Positions 38,207 to 44,837 of a stretch of DNA of 64,000 nt are shown in pieces. This DNA comes from Thiobacillus sp. (GTDB lineage Bacteria > Pseudomonadota > Gammaproteobacteria > Burkholderiales > Thiobacillaceae): NCBI RefSeq assembly GCF_018780105.1, contig NZ_JADMKC010000002.1, forward strand, positions 248,001-312,000, read 5' to 3'. The notes below the pieces were generated by a model. That model made no database searches, had not been told where the DNA came from, and was given only the letters and a program-made list of their open reading frames with translations. Every line of letters starts with the position of its first letter. Within the stretch, counting starts at the first letter, position 1. The position numbers and the translations under genes are program-made.

Positions 38207-39037
38207 ATGAAAACAATCCTGACTTCGGGCGTGGTTGCAGTAGCGCTGTCTCTGGCCGGCTGCAGCAGTAGCCCCAGCGTGACGGGCAAGCCTGCGACGC
38301 CGGCCAAAAGCGCGAAAGGCGGCGGCTACTATCTCGACGACGGCCCCGAGTCCTCGCCGCCGCCCAACCTCGCCGCCATCCCGGACGCGGTGCCGCGCGA
38401 TGAGCCGCTGCACCGCTTTGCCAATCGCCCCTACGAAGTGCTGGGCAGCCGCTATGTGCCGCAGACCGAGCGCCGCAGCTTTAGCCAGGAAGGCGTGGCG
38501 TCGTGGTACGGCAAGCGCTTTCACGGCAAGAAAACCGCCTCGGGCGAGCCCTACGACATGTATGCCATGACGGCTGCGCATCCGACCCTGCCGATCCCGA
38601 GCTATGTGCGGGTGACTTCGCTGGCCAACGGCCAATCCGTGGTGGTGCGGATCAACGACCGCGGGCCGTTTCACAGTCAACGCATCATCGACCTGTCGTA
38701 CACCGCTGCGACCAAGCTGGGCTATATCAGCCAGGGCAGCACCCGGGTGCGGGTAGAGGGCCTTGATCCCGCCGCTTACGACACGACCGGCGAGGCGATC
38801 GGGCAGGGCGTCTATCTGCAGGTGGGCGCGTTTTCGAGCCCCGGCAATGCACAGCAACTGCTGGATCGACTGATGCGCGAACTCGAACTCGACAGCGGGC
38901 AGACACGCGTCGTGCTGACGGGCAAGCTGCATCGGGTGCAGCTGGGCCCGTATGCCAGCGACGATGTCGCGCAGGCCGAGCGCGCCCGGGTGCAGGAGCG
39001 TCTCGCGCTCAACGCCATTCTGGTCCGACGGGATTGA
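38207..39037 (+). CDS. rlpA: Septal-ring lytic transglycosylase RlpA-like lipoprotein
   Basis: A 276-residue lipoprotein. A signal peptide ends in LSLAGC. The double-psi beta-barrel (GVASWYGKRFHGKKTASGE with NDRGPF later, Asp conserved) is followed at about residues 200-275 by a SPOR domain (YLQVGAFSSPGNAQQL) that binds denuded glycan strands at the septum. Seventeen bases after rodA, same operon. Confidence 0.95.
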   Translation: MKTILTSGVVAVALSLAGCSSSPSVTGKPATPAKSAKGGGYYLDDGPESSPPPNLAAIPDAVPRDEPLHRFANRPYEVLGSRYVPQTERRSFSQEGVASWYGKRFHGKKTASGEPYDMYAMTAAHPTLPIPSYVRVTSLANGQSVVVRINDRGPFHSQRIIDLSYTAATKLGYISQGSTRVRVEGLDPAAYDTTGEAIGQGVYLQVGAFSSPGNAQQLLDRLMRELELDSGQTRVVLTGKLHRVQLGPYASDDVAQAERARVQERLALNAILVRRD

Positions 39038-39044
39038 GCGGGCC

Positions 39045-40166
39045 ATGGGCATGAAGCGATTTGGTCTCGGCGTGATCGGCCTATTTTTCGCGTTCGCGGT
39101 ATCGGCCGCGCCGGTGGGGATGGGCGCGCGGGCGTGGGTGTCGATCGATCAGGCCAGCGGGCGTGAGCTGGCGGCGCATCAGGCCGATCTGCCGCTGGCG
39201 CCAGCCTCGCTGACCCAGTTGATGACGGCCTATGTGCTGCTCGGCGATATCAAGAAAAACAAGCTGAGTCTGGGCGAATTGCTCACCGTGCCGCCTGCCG
39301 CCGAACAGGTCGACGGCGCGCGCGTGTTCCTCAAGGCGGGCGAGCAGATCAGTGTCGACACCCTGCTGCAGGCCATGCTGGTGCAGTCGGCCAGCGATGC
39401 CGTACTCACGCTGGTGACAGCGGCCGACGGCAGCGAAGCAGCCTTTGTCGCGCGCATGAACCGTGAAGCCAAACGTCTCGGCTTGAGCAAAACCCGTTTC
39501 ATGAATGCCACCGGCCTGACCGAGCCGGGACACGAGTCGAGCGCGCGCGACCTGGCCCTGCTCGGGCGCGCGCTGGTGCGGGACTTCCCCAATCGCCTGG
39601 CGTTCTTTGCGCAGCAGGAACTGGTCTTCAAGGGCATCACCTATTACAACGCCAATCGCCTGCTGTGGCGTGATCCCACGGTGAACGGGCTGAAAGTCGG
39701 CCGCACCACGCAGGCCGGCTACTGCGCGGTCATCTCGGCCACGCGTGGCGACCAGCAGCGCATCGCAGTGGTGTTGGGGGCGCGTACCGATGCCCAGCGC
39801 ACGCAGGATGCGCTCAAGCTGCAGAACGATGCATTCGAGAATTACGACAGCGTGCGCCTGTACCGCGCCGGTCAGAGCGTCAAGGTGATCAAGCTCTACC
39901 GCGGTTTGAGCGACAGCGTGGCGCTCGGTTTTGCGCAGGATTTCCATCTGCTGATTCCGCACGGCAGCGCCGCCCGTCTCAAGGCTGAAGTCATCACTCA
40001 GCAACCGGCGCTGGCGCCGGTCAACAAAGGGCAGCGCATGGGCAGCCTGCGGCTGACATTGGACGGCAAGCCGCTGGGCGATTTCGCTCTGGTCGCGCTG
40101 CAGGACGTGGGCGTGTCCGGCATTTTTGGCCGCGCCTGGGACTCCCTGCGGCTGATGGTGGAGTGA
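39045..40166 (+). CDS. D-alanyl-D-alanine carboxypeptidase homologue, active site degraded
   Basis: A 373-residue exported protein that aligns along its length with DacC-type S11 carboxypeptidases, which trim the last D-Ala of stem peptides. A signal peptide (GLFFAFAVSA) and the C-terminal domain are present. All three motifs are altered: SxxK reads S55-L-T-Q58, SGN reads S115-A-S117, and KTG reads K217-V-G219. Without the general-base lysine, acylation chemistry should fail, so I predict a non-enzymatic role such as substrate binding. Starts at 39045 or 39051 are both possible. It follows rlpA closely in the elongasome cluster. The open frame is intact, so it is not a pseudogene by truncation. 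Confidence 0.88.
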   Translation: MGMKRFGLGVIGLFFAFAVSAAPVGMGARAWVSIDQASGRELAAHQADLPLAPASLTQLMTAYVLLGDIKKNKLSLGELLTVPPAAEQVDGARVFLKAGEQISVDTLLQAMLVQSASDAVLTLVTAADGSEAAFVARMNREAKRLGLSKTRFMNATGLTEPGHESSARDLALLGRALVRDFPNRLAFFAQQELVFKGITYYNANRLLWRDPTVNGLKVGRTTQAGYCAVISATRGDQQRIAVVLGARTDAQRTQDALKLQNDAFENYDSVRLYRAGQSVKVIKLYRGLSDSVALGFAQDFHLLIPHGSAARLKAEVITQQPALAPVNKGQRMGSLRLTLDGKPLGDFALVALQDVGVSGIFGRAWDSLRLMVE

Positions 40167-40404
40167 TCCTAAAAACCGCAGTTGACCGCTCATCGCTTTC
40201 GTAAATACCGTATGAATACAGAATTGATCGCCTTCGATACCATTCATCTTATTGGGCGAGTCCGCTACGCACCCGATGTCACGCCTGCTCGTGCGTCTGC
40301 CTTTGTCGCACCTCCTTGCGGGCCCCGGCCCGCGGCGTCGTTGCTTCGCGGCAGACACCCGACCAGACGCACCCTCGGGCGCGTCCAACTGCGGTTTCTA
40401 GGAT
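40166..40404. mobile_element. MITE-like element with 19-bp terminal inverted repeats
   Basis: ATCCTAAAAACCGCAGTTG at the left (40166-40184) and its inverted copy at the right (40386-40404) match at 18 of 19 positions and enclose about 200 bases with no transposase. Internal GC-rich palindromes (GCGGGCC near 40317) are visible. Both flanks carry TGA, a possible 3-bp target duplication. The left TGA is the stop codon of the carboxypeptidase homologue and the right end contains the first aminotransferase ATG. An open frame inside (40182-40406) is not convincing. Confidence 0.6.
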
Positions 40405-41254
40405 GATGGCGGTGTATCTGGATGGCCGCTTCATGCCGCTGGCCGATGCCAGGGTGTCGGTGCTGGACCGTGGCTTCGTTTTCGGCGATGGCGTGTACGA
40501 ACTGGTGCCGGTGTATTCGCGCAAGCCCTTCCGGCTGGAAGAACACCTGCGTCGCCTGCAGCACAGTCTCGACGGCATCCGCCTGGCCAATCCGCACGGC
40601 GTCGCCGTATGGCGCGAGTTGATCGAACAATTGATCGCGCAGCAGGATTTCGACGACCAGTCGGTTTACCTGCAAATCACGCGCGGGGTGGCGCCGCGTG
40701 ACCACGCGTTTCCAGCGGGCGTGGCGCCGACCGTGTTCATGTTTGCGCAGCCGCTGGTGAGTGCAACGGCTGAACAAAAATCGGCCGGTGTGTGCGCCAT
40801 TACCGCGCCCGATATCCGCTGGGGGCGCTGCGATATCAAGGCCATTTCGCTGCTCGCCAACGTGCTGGCGCGGCAGCAGGCGGTGGAAGCCGGCTGTGCC
40901 GAAACCGTTATGCTGCGCGACGGGTTTTTCAGCGAAGGGGCGGCGAGCAACATTTTTGTGGTGAAAGACGGCGTGCTGCGGGCACCGCCGCCGTCCCGTC
41001 TGATTCTCACCGGCATCACTTATGACGTGGTGCTGGAACTCGCGGCCGCGCATGGCATTCCGGCCGAGCTGCGGGCGATCAGCGAAGCCGAATTGCGTGA
41101 TGCTGACGAGTTGTGGATGACCTCGTCGACCAAGGAAATCATGCCGATCGTAAGCCTCGATGGCGCGCCGATCGGCGATGGCAAGCAAGGACCGATGGCG
41201 CGGCAGATGGATGCGCTGTACCAGCAATTCAAACAACAGGTGATGCGCGCATGA
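40403..41254 (+). CDS. D-amino acid aminotransferase (class IV PLP)
   Basis: A 283-residue fold-type IV PLP enzyme, most like D-alanine aminotransferase, moving amino groups between D-amino acids and 2-oxo acids. The expected Schiff-base lysine is K146 in CDIKAISLLANVL. VSVLDRGFVFGDGVYE and SEGAASNIFVV are family blocks. Branched-chain aminotransferase or aminodeoxychorismate lyase are less likely. The first ATG (40403) lies inside the right repeat of the MITE-like element and ATG 40406 is just outside, so the native start may have been replaced. The end overlaps ybeD (ATGA). A role in supplying D-amino acids for the wall fits the position. Confidence 0.9.
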   Translation: MMAVYLDGRFMPLADARVSVLDRGFVFGDGVYELVPVYSRKPFRLEEHLRRLQHSLDGIRLANPHGVAVWRELIEQLIAQQDFDDQSVYLQITRGVAPRDHAFPAGVAPTVFMFAQPLVSATAEQKSAGVCAITAPDIRWGRCDIKAISLLANVLARQQAVEAGCAETVMLRDGFFSEGAASNIFVVKDGVLRAPPPSRLILTGITYDVVLELAAAHGIPAELRAISEAELRDADELWMTSSTKEIMPIVSLDGAPIGDGKQGPMARQMDALYQQFKQQVMRA

Positions 41255-42152: not shown

Positions 42153-42201
42153 CCGGTTTAGTCGGTTATTAGTATTCTTGCAGCTTCTATTGGAGTTATT
42201 T

Positions 42202-43317
42202 ATGACCACCGACACCCTGCCGTCCGACCCCAAGCTGCTGATGCGCTCGATTATTCAGCGTATTGCCACCGGCCCTGATCTGTCGAAAGACATCAGCCGC
42301 ACCGAGGCGCATCTGGGCACCAAGGCCATCATCGACAACGTCATCGATCCGGTGCAAGTGGGTATTTACTTCATTGCGTTGCGGATGAAGCGCGAGACCA
42401 TGGACGAGAACCGCGGCGTGCTCGATGCGGTGCTGGAAACCACGCGCCGCGTGACGGCCGAGGTGGACGAAGTGGTCGATATCGGCGACCCCTACGATGG
42501 CTATACCCGCTGTCTGCCCGCCGCGCCCTTCCTGGGCCCGCTGCTGGCCGAATTTGACGTGCATGTGGTGTCGCATGGCCTGGACAAGGTCGGCCCCAAA
42601 TACGGCGTAACGGCGCGCCACGTGCTGGAAGCGGCTGGGGTGCCGGTCAACCTGTCGCCCGCCGAAGCGGCCGCGCGCCTCTCCGATCCTGCGCTGGGCT
42701 GGACCTACGTCGACCAGGCACATTCCAACCCCGGCATGCACAACCTGATTCCGTTGCGCACCCAGATGATCAAGCGCCAGGTGCTGACCACGGTGGAGGT
42801 GCTGTCGAAGCCCATCGCCGGCAAAAAATTGACGCATTTCGTGACCGGCTACGTGCACAAGCCCTATCCGCCGGTGTACGCCGACCTCGCGCGGGTGGCT
42901 GGATTCGACACTGCCTGCATCGTACGCGGCGTCGAGGGCGGGGTGATTCCGTCGCTGCGCCAGACCGGCAAATATTTCCACTACCACGATCGCGCCGAGG
43001 AAATCGAAGCCAGCATCGATCCGGTGGCGCTCGGCATCGACCAGCCGATACGCGCCGTGCCGCTACCCGGCAGCGTGGCGGGTGAGGCGGGCGAGGACGA
43101 AATCGTCGCCGCCATCGATATCAAGGCCACCGCGCATGCCGCCGCCGAGGCCGGCATTCTGGCGCTCAAGGGCGACAAGGGCGCAACCTACGATTCGCTG
43201 GTGCTGGCCGGTTCGATCATCCTGCACCACGTCGGCAAGGCAGCCAGCGTGGCCGATGCGGCGGCGCAGATCCGTGCGGTGCTGGATTCCGGCCGTGCCG
43301 TGGCGCGGGTGAAGTGA
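42202..43317 (+). CDS. TrpD-like glycosyltransferase-3 family protein
   Basis: A 371-residue protein of the anthranilate phosphoribosyltransferase fold, most like the YbiB/TrpD2 branch. The N-terminal helices and FLGPLLAEFDVHVVSHG are recognisable, but the PRPP-binding GTGGDG of true TrpD is replaced by GDPYDGYTR (residues 95-103), and KVGPKYG stands where the KSGS-type loop is expected. So tryptophan synthesis is doubtful and a nucleotide- or nucleic-acid-binding role is possible. GGAG lies upstream of ATG 42202. It overlaps the Rieske gene by a TGATG junction. Confidence 0.8.
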   Translation: MTTDTLPSDPKLLMRSIIQRIATGPDLSKDISRTEAHLGTKAIIDNVIDPVQVGIYFIALRMKRETMDENRGVLDAVLETTRRVTAEVDEVVDIGDPYDGYTRCLPAAPFLGPLLAEFDVHVVSHGLDKVGPKYGVTARHVLEAAGVPVNLSPAEAAARLSDPALGWTYVDQAHSNPGMHNLIPLRTQMIKRQVLTTVEVLSKPIAGKKLTHFVTGYVHKPYPPVYADLARVAGFDTACIVRGVEGGVIPSLRQTGKYFHYHDRAEEIEASIDPVALGIDQPIRAVPLPGSVAGEAGEDEIVAAIDIKATAHAAAEAGILALKGDKGATYDSLVLAGSIILHHVGKAASVADAAAQIRAVLDSGRAVARVK

Positions 43318-43625
43318 TGGCCGAATATGTCGCCATCGCCGCTGCCGACGAACTCAAGCCGGCGCAGATGAAACGCGTCGTCGTCGACGGCAGGAAGCTG
43401 CTGCTGTGCAACGCCAACGGCACGCATTACGTTGTCGACGAAATGTGCAGCCACGAGGATTATTCCCTCTACCTCGGCTGCATCAAGGACGGCAAGATCA
43501 AGTGCTCGCTGCATGGCAGCTACTTCGATCTGACCACTGGCCAGCCCACCTGCGATCCGGCCGACGAGCCGATCAGGACCTACCCGGTGAAAATCGAGGC
43601 CGGACAGGTCTGGGTCAAGGCTTGA
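43317..43625 (+). CDS. Rieske 2Fe-2S ferredoxin
   Basis: A 102-residue soluble Rieske protein. The cluster ligands lie in CSHEDY and CSLHGSYF, two Cys and two His, and PTCDPADEPIRTYPVK closes the fold. It resembles the ferredoxin components of dioxygenases and the NirD-like group. It overlaps the TrpD-like gene, so the two are co-expressed; an electron-transfer link is inference. Confidence 0.9.
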   Translation: MAEYVAIAAADELKPAQMKRVVVDGRKLLLCNANGTHYVVDEMCSHEDYSLYLGCIKDGKIKCSLHGSYFDLTTGQPTCDPADEPIRTYPVKIEAGQVWVKA

Positions 43626-44222
43626 TTATTTGGGCGTTGATTGTTTGAGTAGATCGCGGATCGTCTGCTCGATCTCCGGGTGGTCGAACTCGCGTCCGCC
43701 CATCGCCCGGTAAACTACGCGCCCCTGCGGGTCCACGATGTAGCTTGCGGGTAGGCCCAGCACGTTCCAGGCGTGGGAAACCGTGCTGTTGTGGTCGAAC
43801 AGGATGGGGAAGGTGGGCGCTGGATCCAGTTGTCCGGTAAATGCGAATACCTGATCGGGTTCTTCTTGCTGGTTGACGGCCAGAATGACAAAAGGCTGGT
43901 CTTTGAGTCGCTGCGCCAGTCGCTCCATGGAAGGCATCTCTCGGCGGCAGGGCGGGCACCAGGTTGCCCAGAAATTGACCAGCACCACTTTGCCGTGATG
44001 ATCCGACAGCTTGACCGGCTTGCCGTCCAGATCGGGCAGGGTGAAATCGCTGGCGGGCCTGGCTGGTTTAAGTGAAGTGAAACTGTGGCTCATTTCCGGC
44101 AGCGGCAGCGCTGCCTGGGCGCTGCCCGCAAGGCACAGTGCGATCCCGAAGCTAAGGAGCAAGCGGCGGCTTGTCGGGTGCGCAGACCAGGTTTTCCATT
44201 TTGCCGCGGTAGTGTTTGCCAT
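43626..44222 (-). CDS. TlpA-family thioredoxin-like protein
   Basis: A 198-residue membrane-anchored or exported thiol-disulfide protein. An N-terminal hydrophobic segment (residues 20-38) precedes a thioredoxin fold with active site WCPPC in NFWATWCPPCRREMPS. Likely to act in cytochrome c or disulfide housekeeping. It is convergent with the Rieske gene with no gap and overlaps the next upstream gene by 71 bases. Confidence 0.9.
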   Translation of the reverse strand: MANTTAAKWKTWSAHPTSRRLLLSFGIALCLAGSAQAALPLPEMSHSFTSLKPARPASDFTLPDLDGKPVKLSDHHGKVVLVNFWATWCPPCRREMPSMERLAQRLKDQPFVILAVNQQEEPDQVFAFTGQLDPAPTFPILFDHNSTVSHAWNVLGLPASYIVDPQGRVVYRAMGGREFDHPEIEQTIRDLLKQSTPK

Positions 44223-44730
44223 GATGTTTCCATGAGTAAAGCAGATCGAAATGCGAACCGGGCGGCAGTTGTATCGTGGTGAAACCCTGCGCCCAGTCGC
44301 TCGCGTCAAAACTTGCGGCGGCGGGCAGGATCGACCAGCCGAAATCCGAGCCGAACGCTTTCCATTCGGCGATCCACTCGGGTTTGGTCTTGGGCCGGTG
44401 CTGCGTGCCGTCCGGCGTGACGGCGCGCCAGTCCGCCACCTGGTAATCCAGCGTGCTGCCGGACCTGTTCTGCGCCACGCTGCCAAACACACAATAGCCG
44501 CGCATGCTGTCCACCACGGCGGGCGGCAGGTTGCGCGAGGAATAGAGTGCTGCGACATATTCCGGCAATAACTGGATGAGTTCGAGGCTGAACCCCCGAT
44601 CTACCTTTTTCCACGCCAGCAAGCCGCTTTCCGGGTCGCGATTCTGTGTCAGCTCTGCGGCATGAACGGCAGGAACCAGCAGTAGTGCGAGTGAAAAAGT
44701 GAAGCAAGAGAGGGCGGGTGCGCATTGCAT
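44152..44730 (-). CDS. Exported protein of unknown function
   Basis: A 192-residue exported protein. ATG 44730 gives a clear signal peptide (FTFSLALLLVPAVHA); an upstream ATG at 44802 adds an improbable leader. The mature part has paired aromatic and charged segments (ADWRAVTPDGTQHRPK, DLLYSWKHHGKHYRGKMENL) and one or two Cys (GYCVFG, LVCAP). I recognise no family. It lies upstream of, and overlaps by 71 bases, the TlpA-like gene, suggesting a periplasmic redox partner. Confidence 0.7.
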   Translation of the reverse strand: MQCAPALSCFTFSLALLLVPAVHAAELTQNRDPESGLLAWKKVDRGFSLELIQLLPEYVAALYSSRNLPPAVVDSMRGYCVFGSVAQNRSGSTLDYQVADWRAVTPDGTQHRPKTKPEWIAEWKAFGSDFGWSILPAAASFDASDWAQGFTTIQLPPGSHFDLLYSWKHHGKHYRGKMENLVCAPDKPPLAP

Positions 44731-44837
44731 GCGTGAATAGTAATCGCTTGCCTGACCGTGTCCAGATTCCCCTGTCGGGCGCGGGGCGGGACGCCCAGTC
44801 AACTCGGTTAAAATGGCATCTTTAGTGAGGACGCTAT

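Follow-up and report, generated by a model that had tools for sequence, protein, structure and literature searches.

The 64,000-nucleotide stretch of Thiobacillus DNA analyzed here (the window) carries, directly behind rlpA, a gene for a homologue of the D,D-carboxypeptidases PBP5 and PBP6 in which all three catalytic motifs are altered, which raises the question of whether its product (P0001) reflects an error, a gene in decay, or a protein kept for something other than cutting. Whether D,D-carboxypeptidases such as PBP5 act only by trimming or also by their presence is the broader question addressed. P0001 is best explained as a pseudoenzyme of the PBP5 (DacA/DacC, S11) family, neither error nor decay, given that the catalytic residues have been lost across the clade and that the whole protein is under purifying selection.

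P0001 has the S11 domain, the PBP5_C domain after it, and the C-terminal amphipathic helix of PBP5-type S11 proteins (Table 1). Peptidase_S11 was matched with an E value of 2e-59 (201.4 bits against a curated Pfam cutoff of 27.6) and PBP5_C behind it with an E value of 3e-18 (66.2 bits against 21.2). Sequence searches matched solved PBP5 and PBP6 structures over most of its length, the best match covering residues 19 to 357 and the closest solved relatives being P. aeruginosa PBP5 and E. coli PBP6, so that the homology to DacC along the whole length claimed in the original prediction is borne out. The NCBIfam equivalogs for DacA, DacC, and DacD were not reached (243.8, 234.4, and 229.1 bits against cutoffs of 765, 694, and 610), but these cutoffs look tight and the comparison covers P0001 alone. 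An AlphaFold2 model built from 32 genus sequences (mean pLDDT, 76.3; pTM, 0.68) predicts that the PBP5 fold is kept; its top Foldseek match was P. aeruginosa PBP5 (4k91; E value, 2.6e-35; 39% identity), followed by PBP6 and PBP5 structures. In this model, pLDDT is low at residues 1 to 19, in the putative signal peptide region, and below 50 at most residues of 203 to 224, the KTG region. Either ATG 39045 or ATG 39051 could be the start codon. In the C-terminal helix, R363, W365, D366, and L370 are kept among the 53 genus orthologues, and the mean hydrophobic moment is 0.545 in these native proteins, versus 0.518 in 44 intact orthologues from the family and 0.771 in 26 copies of a second gene described below. 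P0001 shares its two-domain fold, export, and C-terminal helix with E. coli PBP5 (DacA) and PBP6 (DacC) and with P. aeruginosa PBP5 (DacC, 4k91), to which it is 36 to 39% identical by structure alignment, and differs from them in the replacement of the SxxK lysine, the SxN asparagine, the KTG threonine, Arg198, and His216.

Table 1. Features of the inactive PBP5-type gene and its conserved neighbors (window coordinates)
Feature	Position	Strand	Remarks
rlpA, immediately upstream, conserved neighbor	38207..39037	+	Present in the stretch for 53/53 native genus orthologues
Gene for inactive DacA/PBP5 homologue (P0001)	39045..40166	+	Open frame, 373 aa; Pfam S11 + PBP5_C; 53 distinct genus orthologues
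Probable signal peptide, residues 1-22	39045..39110	+	By eye: basic start, hydrophobic core, small residues SAA
Peptidase_S11 domain, residues 23-248, full catalytic set missing	39111..39788	+	Pfam match
SxxK motif = SLTQ (Ser55 kept, Lys58 to Gln)	39207..39218	+	S55-L-T-Q58; orthologues Gln 52, His 1 of 53
SxN motif = SAS (Ser115 kept, Asn117 to Ser)	39387..39395	+	Asn in 0/53 orthologues
Residue 203 (PBP5 Arg198 position) = Ala	39651..39653	+	Orthologues Gly 37, Ala 12, Asp 2, Ser 2 of 53
KTG and next residue = KVG-R (Lys217 kept, Thr218 to Val, His220 to Arg)	39693..39704	+	KVG itself 39693-39701
PBP5_C domain, residues 267-355, kept	39843..40109	+	Pfam; beta domain in AlphaFold2 model
C-terminal amphipathic helix, residues 359-373, probable membrane anchor, kept	40119..40163	+	Model helix 362-372; pLDDT <50 at 368-373
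D-amino-acid transaminase-like gene, just downstream, conserved neighbor	40403..41254	+	Best matches slightly below NCBIfam cutoffs

The SxxK lysine, SxN, and KTG of an active D-Ala-D-Ala carboxypeptidase are all three absent from P0001, and the first residue of each motif (Ser, Ser, and Lys) is retained, so that the motifs are altered rather than lost. The original prediction had read SLTQ at residues 55 to 58, SAS at 115 to 117, and KVG at 217 to 219, and the open frame contains them exactly there. It had further held that such changes could be no sequencing slip; the same three positions are changed in all 53 distinct genus orthologues, including those of Thiobacillus denitrificans strain RG (L044) and T. 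thioparus DSM 505 (L048), and sequencing or assembly error was rejected as their cause because they are common to these sequences. The SxxK lysine, the SxN asparagine, and the KTG threonine occur in 0/53 of them. The Asn117 position is occupied by Ser in 36, Gly in 11, Val in 3, Thr in 2, and Ala in 1 (L031), and the Thr218 position by Val in 45 and Ala in 8, giving KVG or KAG throughout. Of the 56 Thiobacillus genomes, 54 contain a close orthologue (67 to 100% identity), with the copy in G008 lying in two pieces (L065) and dropped from the alignment as too short; the two genomes without one, G025 and G121, have assembly completeness of 81% and 84%. Recurrence of the changes in orthologues of related species, left by the original prediction to be checked, holds throughout the genus. 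By contrast, the motifs are intact in every one of the 44 family orthologues that were read from other genera, with KSG in one of them.

Losses extend beyond the three motif positions of the original prediction to R203, H220, and D214, which it had not listed. R203 is replaced in 53/53 genus orthologues, whereas Arg is present in 86 of 88 intact homologues (44 family and 26 second-copy rows, chosen without regard to motif, and 18 rows from the order that are intact by choice, the visibly degenerate L155, L171, L172, L173, L176, and L178 and shorter matches having been excluded). H220 is replaced in 51/53 (Arg 51, His 2), and D214 is changed in 45/53 and kept in 8. From our reading of the alignment, we take residues 203 and 220 to be PBP5 Arg198 and His216. 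Several residues are newly fixed in the genus (Q58 in 52, A116 in 53, R220 in 51, R239 in 52, and R286 in 53 of 53). A second lysine that might take the catalytic place, which would have spoken against loss of activity, was sought by sequence in the clade; among the lysines, conservation of at least 95% was seen only for K217 (of KTG) and K280 (in the C-terminal domain).

The SxxK lysine is described as the general base of the family in PMC9953012 and is lost here, which makes carboxypeptidase activity of P0001 very unlikely as judged from family chemistry. Ser55, Ser115, Asp118, and Lys217 are invariant in 53/53 genus orthologues, and one could suppose a retargeted hydrolase, with Ser55, Ser115, and Lys217 as a new Ser-Ser-Lys triad that attacks a different substrate or is slowly acylated, the more so as the KTG lysine may help to polarize the catalytic serine (PMC9953012). 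However, with the general base gone, Asn117 and Thr218 gone too, and at least one of the residues equivalent to these three lost in each of the other eleven degenerate genomes of the order (see below), we consider such a hydrolase improbable.

The fetched stretches of 40 of the 44 family orthologues from other genera also contain rlpA (it is absent from those of L101, L112, L114, and L153), and because these orthologues are intact, the location behind rlpA, which had been taken as a hint of a new role, is no evidence for one. A neighborhood of rlpA and lipB is also that of the dacA-type gene in E. coli and Pseudomonas. The transaminase-like gene was present in 53/53 native genus stretches and 37/44 family stretches. 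The nearest relatives, eight rows of genus code g36, read SLTK, S[A/G]N, and K[T/S]G. In a careful tree of 63 chosen rows, which omits long degenerate branches and in which the bootstrap had not fully settled (correlation, 0.981), the native Thiobacillus clade is sister to these intact g36 genes with support of 100/99, and the two are joined to other family rows with support of 98/84; the native stem is long, at 0.83 changes per site versus 0.34 for g36. An earlier quick tree grouped the long degenerate branches, possibly falsely, and their placement in it was not used. The native gene has descended vertically.

The window's genome (G000) encodes a second full-length S11 protein on contig C24 (L116) with the motifs SLTK, SGN, and KTG, and differs from P0001 in its intact motifs as well as in its descent, which is that of P. 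aeruginosa PBP5. A second copy of this kind, which aligns with P0001 over almost its entire length at 35 to 40% identity, is present in at least 54 of the 56 genus genomes and was not seen in G022, by a hand tally among the matches listed in which G116 was left unjudged. The motifs were intact in 26/26 distinct second copies examined. In the 63-row tree, seven second copies form the sister group of P. aeruginosa PBP5 (100/100). The two belong to a larger branch (100/99) that also includes E. coli PBP6 and the 22 rows taken from the class beyond the order; a quick tree with 16 second copies agrees on the Pseudomonas-like placement. Based on this placement, Thiobacillus most likely acquired a Pseudomonas-like PBP5 gene. 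No neighbors of the rlpA cluster were found around the second copy in the 20 stretches examined. That the native copy is a recent duplicate of the second copy was considered and rejected on the basis of synteny and the trees. The genome also encodes an S13 (PBP4-type) protein and a further S11 protein (C14:51454; SITK, SDN, and KTG; 28% identical to P0001), which by its sequence we read as PBP7-like.

The native gene is under purifying selection. Its median dN/dS (Nei-Gojobori, 53 genomes) was 0.204 at dS values of 0.05 to 0.5 (95 pairs) and 0.226 at 0.5 to 1.0 (880 pairs), compared to 0.245 (33 pairs) and 0.299 (218 pairs) for the second copy in 25 genomes, 0.211 and 0.224 for RlpA, and 0.099 and 0.086 for RodA in the same bins, the pairs sharing genomes and thus not being independent. 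Among 253 pairs having both copies, median dN was 0.181 for the native gene, 0.213 for the second copy, and 0.197 for RlpA. Absolute dN/dS varies with base composition (intact f23 genes gave 0.43), and the values are informative only when genes from the same genomes are set against each other; the native value is no higher than that of the second copy, and the inactive gene is therefore constrained at least as tightly as the intact one. No internal stops were reported within the orthologue matches of 54 genus genomes, whereas the 53 aligned sequences were preselected as open frames and carry no evidence on this point. The intact frame and purifying selection put forward in the original prediction hold genus-wide, and a pseudogene was rejected on dN/dS and the absence of stops. 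Slow decay without function, the gene being kept by chance or by its operon position, would accord with the loss of catalytic residues, with intact motifs being held by another gene, and with the long stem branch, but dN/dS of about 0.2 over hundreds of nonindependent pairs, the stop-free matches, and conservation of at least 95% at 155 of the 373 positions render it extremely improbable.

The groove itself gives a mixed picture. In a shell hand-defined around the motifs of domain I, the ratio of shell entropy to that of the rest was 0.63 in the native proteins, 0.28 in the second copies, and 0.47 in the family. The native shell is thus relaxed relative to intact clades, but it continues to vary less than the remainder of the domain, with 1.7% of shifted masks equally low. 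The g36 proteins give 0.65 despite intact motifs (8 rows only), so the ratio alone is no proof of relaxation. The invariance of Ser55, Ser115, and Lys217 and the conserved shell exceed what a pure dead-site scaffold needs. The protein might accordingly have become a sensor or anchor in which the old groove binds another cell wall fragment (a tetra- or tripeptide or a modified stem) uncut, and the continued conservation of the groove in the genus, together with the newly fixed Q58, A116, R220, R239, and R286, would fit. In PBP5, however, Thr, Arg, and His surround the D-Ala carboxylate, and the replacement of T218 and R203 in all 53 orthologues and of H220 in 51 should, given these roles, destroy that canonical site; the binding of stem peptides suggested in the original prediction is for this reason less well supported. 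Further, the inactive S44G form of E. coli PBP5 behaves as if substrate affinity were lost, according to PMC2909392 and PMC5596342. Overall, we regard groove binding as unlikely.

Loss of catalytic residues is not restricted to Thiobacillus. Searching the order with a mixed profile that itself holds degenerate members, and then reading the motifs, we found a full-length PBP5-type protein in 83 of 90 genomes (none in 7). When a protein is called degenerate as soon as one or more of the defining residues are gone (in SxxK, the Ser or Lys; in SxN, the Ser or Asn; in KTG, the Lys, Thr/Ser, or Gly), a degenerate copy is present in 12/83 order genomes and 9/46 families including the window's genome and in 11/82 and 8/45 without it. 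In the rest of the class, 2 of the 74 genomes read were degenerate (83 were searched; six had no match, two had short or partial matches only, and one with a full-length match, G353, was left out). Fisher's test of the order against the rest of the class gave p values of 0.011 by genomes and 0.003 by families, with the window's genome included and relatedness uncorrected. Some of the degenerate PBP5-type proteins of the order are merely 25 to 30% identical to normal DacA.

Some degenerate forms in other families are shared by whole genera. In f18 (L171 and L194-L210), a full-length orthologue was found in 17 of 26 genomes, and the SxN serine and KTG lysine are absent from all 17, with SxxK kept in all 7 of genus g37 and lost in all 10 of g18. 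In f19 (degenerate rows L172 and L224-L229), with a full-length orthologue in 11 of 17 genomes, the same two residues are missing in 6/6 of g19 (L229 of G170 has ALTQ replacing SxxK), and 5/5 of g39/g41 are intact. The in-match stops flagged in five f18/f19 rows are ordinary stop codons right after the C-terminal helix. The degenerate L171 and L172 genes adjoin lipB. In f20, the query found full-length matches in 16 of 51 genomes, of which 12 are altered in all three motifs, two show SAS only, and two are intact, although sequences of 25 to 30% identity align uncertainly around the motifs, and the partial or short rows L298-L311 were excluded; the degenerate rows of f20 are L173 and 12 of L282-L297. 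Degeneracy was seen in a single genome of f23 (1 of 24 read) and in 1/2 of f2. The protein of G277 (f44, L404) has AALTQ and KAG. It thus shares with Thiobacillus the changes of Lys58 to Gln and of Thr218 to Ala and has, in addition, Ala in place of Ser55; it is nevertheless closest (44%, among the rows compared) to intact proteins of other families, which points to an independent event. Four sampled degenerate groups had median dN/dS values of 0.04 to 0.37, with 4 to 12 usable pairs each; f20 g52 had none usable. Similar losses in several related families suggest that the protein does something besides cutting.

The pattern of a degenerate native copy next to an intact second one recurs in G310 (f38), whose native copy (L391) lacks the KTG lysine and whose second copy (L405) is intact; G295 (f15) has two full-length copies (L314 and L406), both intact, and L405 and L406 are 67% identical to each other. 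Of the 12 degenerate order genomes, only G000 and G310 have a second full-length intact copy (for G277, among the matches listed). P0001 could, in principle, be a dominant-negative subunit of the acquired DacC or of the PBP7- or PBP4-type enzymes that damps trimming and spares pentapeptides for cross-linking. PBP5-type enzymes self-associate, according to PMC5596342, and a second copy accompanies the native one almost throughout the genus; on the other hand, ten of the 12 degenerate genomes showed no such copy, and the two Thiobacillus proteins come from distant branches, so that a common dimer interface is not a given. We therefore consider a negative regulator quite unlikely, marginally less so than a retargeted hydrolase.

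Among the four functional readings, whose odds are rough and overlapping (that of a regulator overlaps with the one preferred here), we favor P0001 as a catalysis-free, membrane-attached PBP5 fold kept for a noncatalytic role near the elongation machinery, with a probability of roughly 0.55. The Pseudomonas-like PBP5 gene, whose D,D-carboxypeptidase motifs are intact, would have entered an ancestor of Thiobacillus from outside; the native gene of the pbp2-rodA-rlpA cluster would have lost Lys58, Asn117, Thr218, Arg203, and His220, and its protein would have kept the export signal, both domains, and the C-terminal helix, presumably remaining attached to the membrane. It may then do its job through protein contacts: located on the lateral wall as a PBP5-type partner in a permanent "resting" state, it could dock with the elongation machinery or the active DacC, tuning where trimming and elongation occur. 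Because the export signal, domains, and anchor are kept and the residues lost differ by lineage, the common denominator appears to be the protein body and not the groove, which together with a precedent in E. coli favors a noncatalytic partner of the elongation machinery. The scaffold role of the original prediction would be compatible with this, our best reading. Two points weigh against a single scheme: the other degenerate lineages lose different residues, so that one common role is not required, and with a second intact copy seen in only two of the 12 genomes, partnership with an active DacC cannot account for the losses in general.

The precedent is the inactive S44G PBP5 of E. coli. As described in PMC5596342, this protein dimerizes in a different way and remains at the lateral wall, and its presence changes the cell diameter; a possible cause mentioned by the authors is that it interferes with the elongation machinery. 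Cells with inactive PBP5 thus have a changed shape, whereas the absence of PBP5 causes only minor defects. In the parts available, this report and PMC2909392 concern a Ser-to-Gly mutant and not a Lys-to-Gln change in SxxK. Like S44G, which has a phenotype of its own from its presence, P0001 would be an inactive PBP5; unlike S44G, which is man-made and without Ser44, it is natural and conserved, keeps the Ser, and is without the Lys and other residues. EnvC and NlpD, degenerate LytM factors, are peptidoglycan hydrolase homologues without catalytic residues that are kept as regulators, and P0001 resembles them as a noncatalytic hydrolase homologue but differs in that they have the M23 fold and are division specific. 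Pseudoenzymes in peptidoglycan metabolism are therefore already a known kind, and a naturally conserved inactive PBP5/DacA may be new, no report of one having been found among the listed matches in the open-license literature, which is weak evidence.

In Thiobacillus, nature has fixed an inactive PBP5 in genomes that also encode an intact PBP5 with its own line of descent, making the question of trimming versus presence directly testable. We tentatively suggest, with somewhat less than even confidence, that the PBP5 architecture has an ancient second, catalysis-independent role in the rod-shape machinery and that its active site was discarded several times in the order; if so, Thiobacillus with its acquired intact DacC would represent a natural separation of the two roles of PBP5. 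In addition, the annotation "D-alanyl-D-alanine carboxypeptidase" at this locus in the order needs motif-by-motif checking, which bears on predictions of wall chemistry.

The surroundings of the native gene show two further features. The gap between the carboxypeptidase and transaminase genes (40164-40408) holds a miniature inverted-repeat transposable element (MITE)-like element of about 240 bp, which starts at or next to the carboxypeptidase stop codon, has inverted ends of 16 bases or longer (40169-40184 and 40386-40401), and has a strongly folding strand (z, -4.2); this genome contains nine near-full-length copies including this one, at 77 to 100% identity, and several partial ones. Farther downstream, lipB and lipA, which both lie close behind dacA in the g36 relatives, are about 2.7 kb apart (window positions 42178-44802), with genes named by eye as a phosphoribosyltransferase-like gene, a Rieske-type ferredoxin gene, and minus-strand genes including one for a TlpA-like thioredoxin between them.
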